From: Actinomycetota bacterium
GTDB taxonomy: Bacteria > Actinomycetota > Actinomycetes > Nanopelagicales > Nanopelagicaceae
Length of the DNA: 47,562 nt
Direction: 5' to 3'
Assembly (NCBI GenBank): GCA_005800815.1
Contig: SYEK01000003.1
Location: 1 to 47,562, forward strand
Shown here: positions 462 through 2,962 of the stretch, in pieces
Layout of the letters: each line of letters starts with the position of its first letter
Position numbering within the stretch: the first letter of the stretch is position 1
Notes under the pieces: generated by a model
The model's input: the letters and a program-made list of their open reading frames with translations, nothing else
What the model was told of the DNA's origin: nothing
The model's database searches: none
Position numbers and translations under genes: made by a program

Positions 462-749
462 TTATTTCGCCGAAGATGTGTAGGGAAGTAGGGCTACTTC
501 GCGGCTGTTCTTGACTGCAGTTGCAATCGAGCGCTGGTGTTGTGTGCATGCACCAGTGACGCGTCGGGCACGGATCTTGCCGCGATCGGAGATGTACTTG
601 CGAAGGGTAGATATGTCTTTGTAGTCGATGTAGGTGAGCTTTTGCTGGCAGAAACTGCACGGCTTCTTCTTGAACTTCTTGTTTAGGGCAGCGGCCTTTG
701 CGCCCTTGTTCTTTGGCTCGCGTAGAGCCTTGTTATTTCTTGCTCCCAT
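462..749 (-). CDS. rpsR: 30S ribosomal protein S18
   Basis: Small-subunit protein S18, the partner of S6 on the 16S rRNA platform. The 95-residue protein has a basic N-terminus ([13 protein letters not shown]), a CSFC pair near residues 32-35, the conserved YIDYKD segment and the [14 protein letters not shown] core. The CxxC pair plus a later Cys suggest the zinc-binding (C+) form of S18, as found in many actinobacteria; zinc binding is inferred from the residues only. Length is slightly above the usual 75-85 because of the N-terminal extension. It sits between ssb and rplI in the standard S6 operon. Confidence 0.96.
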
Positions 750-831: not shown

Positions 832-1341
832 TTAAAAGGGTGGTTCATCGGTGGTTGAGCTACCCCAACCACCGCCTGCTGCCGGTGTTGAGGATGCTGC
901 AGCGGCCCATGGATCTTCGGTAAATGAATCGCTGGCAGCCGGTGCTGAGAATGCGCCGCCTGTGCCGCCAGTACGCGCGGCCTTGGTGACTTTAGCGGTG
1001 GCATTACGTAGTGATGGACCGACCTCATCTACCTCTACCTCAAAGACTGTTCGCTTCTCGCCCTCTTTTGTCTCAAAAGAGCGCTGCTTCAATCGACCCG
1101 AGAGGATCACGCGCATTCCCTTTGTCAGTGACTCGGCAACGTTCTCGGCTGCCTGACGCCAGATCTGACACTGCAGAAAAAGGCTATCGCCATCTTTCCA
1201 CTCATTGGTCTGCTTATCGAGATAGCGAGGGGTGGAGGCAACACGGAACTTGGCAACGGCCGCACCTGATGGTGTGAAACGTAGCTCGGGATCATCAACT
1301 AGGTTGCCAATCATCGTAATCGTTGTATCTCCTGCTGCCAT
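832..1341 (-). CDS. ssb: single-stranded DNA-binding protein
   Basis: SSB protects single-stranded DNA during replication and repair and recruits partner proteins through its C-terminal tip. The 169-residue product has an N-terminal OB fold (about residues 1-115; [15 protein letters not shown] and [12 protein letters not shown] are typical of actinobacterial SSB). A flexible Gly/Ala/Ser-rich linker follows, and the C-terminus is the protein-docking peptide DEPPF. It lies between rpsF and rpsR on the same strand, the usual bacterial arrangement, about 80 bases upstream of rpsR and 39 bases after rpsF. No second ssb is visible in the window. Confidence 0.96.
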
Positions 1342-1380: not shown

Positions 1381-1668
1381 TTATTTCTCTGGACGTATGA
1401 CTTTGGTGCGCAGAATCGCTTCATTCAAGTTGAGCTGACGATCTAACTCTTTGATTGCAGCTGGCTCGCAGTTCATATCGATGACTGCATAGATACCTTC
1501 GCCCTTTTTCATGATTTCAAATGACATACGGCGACGGCCCCACAAGTCGAGCTTGTTGACGGTTCCGCCGGAGTCTTTGATGATCTTCAAATATGTCTCA
1601 AGGCTTGGTGTGACTGTACGTTCTTCAAGTTCTGGATCAAGAATGACCATAAGTTCATAGTGACGCAT
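1381..1668 (-). CDS. rpsF: 30S ribosomal protein S6
   Basis: Small-subunit protein S6, which forms a heterodimer with S18 before binding 16S rRNA. The 95-residue protein starts [12 protein letters not shown] and contains the conserved [20 protein letters not shown] region; length is normal. It is the first gene of the ribosomal/ssb group. Upstream on the same strand an AGGAGG sequence (bases 1681-1686) lies 12 bases before the start codon and can pair with a CCTCCT at 1719-1724, so translation may be controlled by leader folding (see the leader feature). The upstream glycosyltransferase gene ends about 100 bases away. Confidence 0.96.
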
Positions 1669-1680
1669 GCGTTAACCCGA

Positions 1681-1724
1681 CCTCCTCTGGACTAAGACGG
1701 CCACGGCATTTCCGTGACAGGAGG
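1681..1724 (-). promoter_or_regulatory. candidate S6:S18-binding rpsF leader RNA hiding the SD
   Basis: On the minus-strand transcript, CCTCCT (1719-1724) can pair with AGGAGG (1681-1686), which is the rpsF Shine-Dalgarno sequence. Inside lies a second perfect stem, CACGG/CCGTG (minus-strand reading; 1712-1716 with 1702-1706), with a five-base loop. The long 3' side of the internal loop carries GCCGTCTTAG, with a CCG next to the inner stem. Known S6:S18 leaders have two stems separated by a bulge containing CCG that mimics the 16S site. The match is by inspection, not by covariance model. Confidence 0.5.
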
Positions 1725-1731
1725 GTTAGTG

Positions 1732-1769
1732 CCTCCCCCAACCGGCATCGGATGCTGGTGAGGGGGTGC
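1732..1769 (-). terminator. strong hairpin between the GT87 gene and rpsF
   Basis: CCGGCAT (1742-1748) pairs with ATGCTGG (1752-1758), and outside it CCCCC (1735-1739) pairs with GGGGG (1762-1766), giving a stable two-part stem. It starts at the stop codon of the upstream membrane gene. There is no T-run on the minus strand, so it may be a weak or Rho-assisted terminator, an mRNA-stabilising end, or part of the rpsF leader. Confidence 0.45.
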
Positions 1770-2962
1770 TAAGGGTAGGCCTTGGAGGCCTCAAAGAGTA
1801 AATCAAGGGCCTTGCCCTGTGGATTGCCGGCGGCCAGGGCTCGCTTTGCCAAGACCCACACGAGGTAGAGCGATGTAGCGATCCGCAAAAGAGAGAGCCC
1901 TGCGTAGAGCTGGCCCGAAAGACCGTAGGTAGCGCCAGTGACAAGTGCTAGATGCTGCCAAATGGCGATGTGATACACAATCTCACCACCTTGCCAGACC
2001 CAAAAGGCGGGCAGATCTTTTGTGTGCGTCAGGGCGATTACCGCAAGTGGTGTTAGCCATAAGACGTATTGCGGTGAGTAGACCTTGCTGGCCAGCATGA
2101 TCGTTGCCATGAGAATGAATGCAACCGATGCAAGGGTGGGCGTTGATTTAATCTCAAAGAGAAAGATAGCTATCGCTGTAAGAACGATCAATAAGAGGAG
2201 AAGTGAAAGATAGTTCAGATTTGTAAGTGGCAGACCCAATTGATTCAGGGCTAACCAAAGCGAGCCCCAATCGGCATTTCGCTCTAGATTGAGTGTGTAA
2301 AAACGTGACCACCCTGTCGGAGTTGTCACTATGAATGGCAGATTGATCGCAGACCATACTCCAACTACGGTCATCAGATATTTGATTAACTCTCTTATAC
2401 GATCTTGGCGCCAGAGGATCAAGGCGATAGGTAAGAGTAAAAAGATCGGTAAGAACTTTGTCGAGATTGAAAGGCCGATTGCTAGGGCACTGTATAGATA
2501 TGCCTTGCGATCAAACCAGTAGATTGAGAGCATCATGGTGATAATCGCCCAGAGATCCCAGTTGATGTAGAGAGATGCGATCATGGCAGGTGCAACAGGT
2601 AAGAGATATGAAAAGCTCGGTCTTATTCTGCTCACAACAAAGACTAAGCCGATAAAGAGTGCTGCCAAGAAAATTACATTGATATTGAAGTAGGTGAGAG
2701 GTGAATCCGTAAAGGCGGCGGTGGCAAACATCACCATGCCAGTCAAAACAGGGTACTCCACGGCATTTACATCACTGGTGTAAGGCCACTGGTTCTTATC
2801 TAATCCGCGAGCGCCAAAGAGTGAGGGAAGATCGCTATAACAGGCGTGAACGTACTGATCAGGAGTAGCCCACGTCGTGTCTTGGCAGGTGGAGAATTTC
2901 GCGAAAGAGATCAGTGATGCTAAAACTGCCAGTGCCAAGAGGGCCCTTGAGCGCATAGCCAT
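1769..2962 (-). CDS. GT87-type polytopic membrane glycosyltransferase (DUF2029)
   Basis: A 397-residue integral membrane protein with a hydrophobic N-terminal segment, a periplasmic-looking loop of about residues 28-70 and roughly ten further membrane segments (for example FINVIFLAALFIGLVF-like and ILWLTPLAVIAL-like stretches). This topology and the position between ponA and rpsF match the actinobacterial GT87/DUF2029 family, polyprenyl-phosphate-sugar-dependent mannosyl or arabinosyl transferases acting outside the membrane; Mycobacterium has a member of this family (Rv0051) in the same slot. The acceptor cannot be told from sequence. Its start overlaps the ponA stop by one base (TAATG on the minus strand), implying translational coupling with the penicillin-binding protein and a shared cell-envelope role. 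Confidence 0.75.
   Translation of the reverse strand: MAMRSRALLALAVLASLISFAKFSTCQDTTWATPDQYVHACYSDLPSLFGARGLDKNQWPYTSDVNAVEYPVLTGMVMFATAAFTDSPLTYFNINVIFLAALFIGLVFVVSRIRPSFSYLLPVAPAMIASLYINWDLWAIITMMLSIYWFDRKAYLYSALAIGLSISTKFLPIFLLLPIALILWRQDRIRELIKYLMTVVGVWSAINLPFIVTTPTGWSRFYTLNLERNADWGSLWLALNQLGLPLTNLNYLSLLLLLIVLTAIAIFLFEIKSTPTLASVAFILMATIMLASKVYSPQYVLWLTPLAVIALTHTKDLPAFWVWQGGEIVYHIAIWQHLALVTGATYGLSGQLYAGLSLLRIATSLYLVWVLAKRALAAGNPQGKALDLLFEASKAYP

Follow-up and report, generated by a model that had tools for sequence, protein, structure and literature searches.

In E. coli and B. subtilis, the S6:S18 leader is placed 5′ of rpsF in an operon that also carries rpsR, and PMC4647458 describes a stem H1 that contains the Shine-Dalgarno sequence (SD), a hairpin H2, a 3′ bulge with a pair of cytosines and the S18 residues that contact them. 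According to the same source, the two conserved leader cytosines are mimics of 16S rRNA positions C719 and C720 that contact K60/R63 of S18, changing them abolishes repression in E. coli, and E. coli S6 and S18 repress an rpsF-leader reporter about fourfold when overexpressed together, while neither does so alone; earlier papers are cited there for binding of the B. subtilis leader in vitro. In a review (PMC10931766), the bulge letters are given as CCG. An S6:S18 r-leader has also been described in Chlorobi, where rpsF, ssb, rpsR and rplI share the operon, and its motif is reported as unlike the rRNA site (PMC7247131). Among the titles and abstract openings listed, no paper on an actinobacterial rpsF leader was found.

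The rpsF leader of the window

The window is a stretch of 47,562 nucleotides from an Actinomycetota bacterium (Nanopelagicaceae), and the sequence 5′ of its rpsF gene reads 5′-UAACCCUCCUGUCACGGAAAUGCCGUGGCCGUCUUAGUCCAGAGGAGGUCGGGUUAACGCAUG on the minus strand. We consider it highly likely that this 5′ UTR is an S6:S18-type rpsF leader, that is, an operator through which S6:S18 would repress by way of the cytosines at 1690-1689. The leader fits well into a family that is known from other bacteria and is no new kind of element, and the position, stems, bulge cytosines and S18 residues listed above for E. coli and B. subtilis recur here (Table 1). Indeed, it lies directly 5′ of rpsF, and ssb, rpsR and rplI follow in one row on the same strand, so that S6 and S18 are both encoded in the operon, as the preliminary description had stated and as the family matches of rpsF and rpsR bear out. 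The gene set and the expected ligand are those of the Chlorobi r-leader, but the window leader, in contrast to the Chlorobi motif, matches the widespread motif. It differs from the better known systems in that H1, by alignment, lacks one pair relative to Bacillus (CUCCU/AGGAG versus CUCCUU/AAGGAG), the bulge carries CCA in place of the E. coli CCG, as is also the case in Bacillaceae, and ssb takes the place of the E. coli priB. Note that the 397-aa ORF located 5′ of the leader (1769-2962, minus strand) matched none of the NCBIfam and Pfam families at E ≤ 0.001.

Table 1. Genes and leader features of the window (all on the minus strand)
Feature	Position	Strand	Remarks
rpsF, ribosomal protein S6	1381..1668	-	TIGR00166, 79.8 bits; start at 1668
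ssb, single-stranded DNA-binding protein	832..1341	-	
rpsR, ribosomal protein S18	462..749	-	TIGR00165, 95.8 bits
rplI, ribosomal protein L9	1..447	-	TIGR00158, 106.3 bits on ORF 1-660, residues 72-218; start placed by counting from this match
SD of rpsF, AGGAGG, 3′ strand of stem H1	1681..1686	-	
Anti-SD, CCUCCU, 5′ strand of stem H1	1719..1724	-	kept in 54/54 class leaders
Stem H2, 5′ strand, GUCACGG	1712..1718	-	double changes in A1, A7 and A8
H2 loop, AAAUG	1707..1711	-	
Stem H2, 3′ strand, CCGUGGC	1700..1706	-	final C opens the CCG of the preliminary description
Asymmetric 3′ bulge, CGUCUUAGUCCAG, 13 nt, from H2 to SD	1687..1699	-	proposed S6:S18 site
Conserved cytosine pair, CC of CCA	1689..1690	-	proposed equivalent of the E. 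coli CCG contacting S18 K60/R63
Hairpin just 5′ of the leader	1731..1769	-	structure kept within the genus, sequence changes; outside the known motif
TACCCT, candidate -10 element	1772..1777	-	overlaps the last codons of the upstream gene

The pairing partners on which the preliminary description was built are present: CCTCCT lies 32 bases 5′ of AGGAGG and is complementary to it on the minus strand, and between the two are the inner stem CACGG (1716-1712)/CCGTG (1706-1702) and, next to it, a CCG (1700-1698). On both strands of the window, AGGAGG occurs 21 times, and only 2 of these copies have a CCTCCT within 60 bases upstream; by their coordinates, these two are one inverted pair read on the two strands.

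Comparative evidence for the stems and for the family

Taken alone, the window sequence says little about structure, since its fold energy was not beyond chance (z of -0.42 with 81 nt, +0.43 with 72 nt, -0.92 with 56 nt). Such ordinary values would fit a chance complementarity between a purine-rich SD and a pyrimidine tract. However, compensating changes among relatives and independent model matches speak strongly against chance pairing, which we regard as almost certainly wrong; the leader structure, as judged from related sequences and not from single-sequence folding, is more than chance.

The comparison used several alignments. A1 holds 54 distinct leaders out of 63 anchored class loci (70 fetched), all from families other than that of the window, and A2 has 46 rows, made up of the window and 45 leaders of the phylum set, in which members of the class are included. 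A4 is a manual selection of 28 Bacillaceae stretches from 63 distinct ones. A7 contains 25 leaders from outside the class, left from 52 anchored phylum stretches (90 loci) after exclusion of 5 class members, 3 mis-anchored stretches, 7 odd layouts and 12 stretches in which MAFFT had shifted an H2 strand. Finally, A8 has 24 rows: the window, 4 rows of its genus and 19 of the 20 fetched rows of its family.

In the 54 class leaders of A1, the 13 pairs of H1 and H2 are intact in 702 of 702 cells, and RNAalifold by itself predicts the same H1 and H2 structure; on A2 it recovered H2 and not H1. Double changes affect 4 of the 7 H2 pairs in A1, 5 of 7 in A7 (where one pair shows them in 15 of 25 rows) and 4 of 7 in A8. 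The covariation score was reached by none of 500 shuffles in each of A1, A7 and A8, with shuffles that ignore the relatedness of the leaders, and the number of extra pair types did not exceed that of the shuffles (45, 204 and 157 of 500, respectively). H2 thus appears as a hairpin with a covarying stem, and H1 as a stem whose 3′ strand is the SD.

Covariation in H1 is more limited. Of the five doubly changed pairs in A8, a single one belongs to H1, where U-A becomes A-U in 4 of the 24 rows, rows of A8 having been chosen to include the four lowest-scoring leaders of another genus. This genus of the same family (g141) has ACACCUG...AGGUGG in all four matched leaders (L290-L293, G317-G320), so that SD and anti-SD are changed together, and the four co-change cells probably reflect a single event. 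The outermost H1 pair, C1724-G1681, is broken in 5 of the 24 A8 rows, and one H1 pair is broken in 5 of the 25 rows of A7. Variation is slight in the rest of H1, as would be expected where the SD forms one strand. The compensating changes that the preliminary description proposed to look for are therefore present in both stems, with H1 contributing one pair and probably one event.

Three covariance models were used in the searches: R1, from 54 distinct class leaders, none of the window's family; R2, from 28 Bacillaceae leaders; and R3, from 25 leaders outside the class. R1 matched the window at 1680-1726 with 60.9 bits (E 1.8e-13), its next-best match in the same genome reaching 14 bits, and it matched 106 of 112 genomes of the order, including the one studied here. 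Of the 90 phylum loci given to it, 84 lie outside the class, and R1 matched 33 of these at E ≤ 0.01; the other 6 loci are from class members. R3 scored 28.9 bits in the window (E 8.2e-5), and in the genome search, with 150 of 410 candidates scored, the window site was the sole match reported at E ≤ 10 (E 0.002). The site is thus found by models trained outside its own group.

Among 20 of the 80 fetched Bacillaceae loci, rpsF leaders were matched in 19 by R1 (E 0.0047 to 1.6) and in all 20 by R3 (E 6.6e-5 to 3.4e-3). R2 gave no match in the window with default filters; with the filters off, no place in 401 bases scored higher than the window site (8.5 bits). The chain from Actinomycetota to Bacillaceae is therefore firm one way and weak the other way. 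As regards E. coli, R1 did not match the rpsF leader, R3 found it at the right place, weakly (E 1.7), and R2 with filters off had it as the best place in 4 kb (7.8 bits, E 0.25). The link to the E. coli leader is weak by model and comes mainly from a short alignment.

The Rfam model RF02893 (RpsF_leader) shares gene context and function class with our element, but no match was found at E ≤ 10 in positions 1300-2400, where its gathering threshold of 37 bits was not reached, and its best match in the genome (14.9 bits) is elsewhere. This miss says little, since the model exceeded its cut-off in just 1 of 14 control genomes, while giving 110.1 bits on E. coli; RF02893 is narrow and covers a small part of the motif. 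The scan with a leader model proposed in the preliminary description thus finds the site when the model is adequate, as with R1 and R3; RF02893 and R2 under default filters missed it. Altogether, the conserved structure, the covariation, the position and the resemblance to Bacillaceae leaders are established for this locus.

Several leaders depart from the common layout. In 22 of 65 class leaders (including L062, L076, L083, L087 and L095), GACGC lies 11-13 bases 5′ of CUCCU, often inside a small hairpin with varying arms (CUGC/GCAG, UUCG/CGAA, GUUGC/GCAAC). In some other classes (L180, L190, L192, L199 and the AU-rich L058, L143 and L170), an extra hairpin has apparently been inserted into the bulge, between H2 and the UCC preceding the SD. 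In family f14 (L073, L078, L084), the leader is remodelled, with a different H1 5′ strand and a different H2. By a simple pattern, the core with CC before GGAG is missing before rpsF in 12 of 90 phylum members. Two of these, L145 and L159, carry GACC followed by an altered GGAT; in the others (L031, L034, L043, L048, L144, L168, L169, L182, L187 and L194), the absence of the core means that the leader may have been lost or replaced.

Cytosines predicted to contact S18

In the E. coli sequence, the CCG between the hairpin and the SD sits in UAAUCCGUAAGGAG, beside the SD, and this segment aligns with UAGUCCAGAGGAGG in the window and with UAGUCCAAAAGGAG in Bacillus inaquosorum. The equivalent cytosine pair of the window is therefore the CC at 1690-1689, which reads CCA, the exact letters CCG being absent there. 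In the genus, this CC is followed by A in 40 of 40 leaders; among 70 class leaders, 53 have A at this third position, 14 have G and 3 have C, some of the C counts being CCCA read one place early (e.g., L093). A conserved cytosine pair thus occupies the bulge and aligns with the E. coli CCG and the Bacillus CCA. The bulge core AGNCC is common to the window and Bacillaceae, and E. coli has UAAUCC. On the protein side, S18 of the window keeps K60, R63, Y23 and K24, and has N at R61. A pattern search meant for a comparison with the 16S rRNA of the same genome gave no match.

The preliminary description had likened a different CCG, at 1700-1698, to the S6:S18-binding bulge. The kind of leader and its likely role were rightly recognized, given the R1 and R3 matches and the covariation, and the CCG itself was probably some nine bases off as the contact. 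The leader could work as proposed with S18 contacting this CCG directly after H2, and GCCG after H2 is indeed very conserved in the class, with a GCCG...AGNCC core in 70 of 80 Bacillaceae. However, the CCG adjoins H2, and its counterpart in E. coli is C-UG, i.e., E. coli has CUG directly after the hairpin and its bulge CCG beside the SD. In addition, its first C (1700) most likely pairs with G1718, the pair being GC in 53 and GU in 1 of the 54 leaders of the class model. Finally, five leaders (L073, L078, L084, L033 and L180) lack a CCG directly after H2 and yet keep CC beside the SD, the three f14 leaders among them having the same GAGUCCA before the SD. From the alignment, the G1718 pairing and these five leaders, we place the predicted S18 contact at 1690-1689; the CCG at 1700-1698 is probably not the contact, and a mechanism that uses it is unlikely.

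A second alternative dispenses with the protein: the SD/anti-SD pairing would be a passive structure that keeps basal translation low, or a thermosensor, and the SD would be hidden by structure alone. This explanation is disfavoured because two phyla maintain AGNCC(A/G) at positions that are not paired, for which a passive stem gives no reason; the S18 contact residues are also conserved in the window. We judge it highly improbable, and we retain control by S6:S18 through the cytosine pair beside the SD.

Folding registers, upstream sequences and proposed regulation

Vienna ensembles computed for 36 distinct genus leaders give the H1 register an average probability of 0.05 (highest 0.40), and the unpaired probability of the SD averages 0.21, which means that the SD is mostly paired. 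Folding 81 nt of the window gave a shifted register, with UAACCC/GGGUUA, in place of the H1 register. H1 is nevertheless favoured over the shifted register by the comparison, since the anti-SD uridine that changed jointly with the SD is unpaired in the latter. It is conceivable, and in our opinion doubtful, that the leader of this family is a two-register switch forming a distinct subclass of S6:S18 leaders. In such a switch, the free RNA would pair UAACCC with GGGUUA while the anti-SD slides to CCU/AGG, and S6:S18 bound to the bulge would enforce the H1 register; the traits of the subclass would be the shorter H1, the CCA bulge, the AGGUGG/CACCU co-switch and, in some other classes, the extra bulge hairpin.

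Two further pairings were considered and rejected. An outward extension of H1 (UAACC/GGUUA) is possible in the window, and comparison gives it no consistent support. In a swapped-partner test with 2000 shuffles, those at least as good as the native pairing numbered 1637 for the class, 1710 for Bacillaceae and 701 for the genus, as against 20 for the phylum set and 12 for all actinobacterial leaders; in a second run of 1000, they numbered 1000 for the class, 1000 for the genus, 911 for all and 1 for 37 non-class phylum pairs. Owing to this conflict, with no support in the class and a signal in the wider phylum set, the extension is not counted in the element. The other pairing, a switch in which the upstream hairpin captures the anti-SD, was seen in one 72-nt fold of the window and had an average probability of 0.0 in 36 distinct genus leaders.

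The upstream hairpin is a feature of the genus, in which the 33-53 bases between the stop of the upstream gene and the leader form a hairpin of changing sequence: 36 of 37 distinct segments (window included) have z below -1, with a mean of -3.75 against simple base shuffles. It is not general in the class (mean z of -0.07, n=65). This hairpin is possibly the 5′ end of the mRNA or the terminator of the upstream gene. Still further upstream, the pattern TA[CT]CC[ACGT]T[AG][AG] is present in 38 of 40 genus loci, L134 being cut short and L135 being without it, and TACCCT is identical in 32 of 32 distinct full-length upstream sequences retrieved by this pattern. A search with a sigma-70-type consensus promoter gave no match. 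The conservation suggests that TACCCT is a -10 element inside the upstream gene, with an mRNA that would start at the hairpin.

Very probably, S6 and S18 turn down their own production through this leader. When synthesis of both proteins outpaces their uptake by ribosomes, the S6:S18 heterodimer would bind the H1-H2 junction and the bulge through the cytosine pair 1690-1689; the bound heterodimer would hold H1 closed and keep the SD hidden, and translation of rpsF, and by coupling that of ssb, rpsR and rplI, would fall. We infer protein binding, repression and coupling from the published work in E. coli and B. subtilis, and the present leader leaves the knowledge of how such leaders work unchanged. 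It indicates that the public model for the S6:S18 leader is too narrow, and the joint SD/anti-SD change in g141 provides a natural compensatory experiment on the SD stem. With this leader, a ribosomal protein regulator that is rare and crosses phylum boundaries is documented in a large group of bacteria with small genomes.
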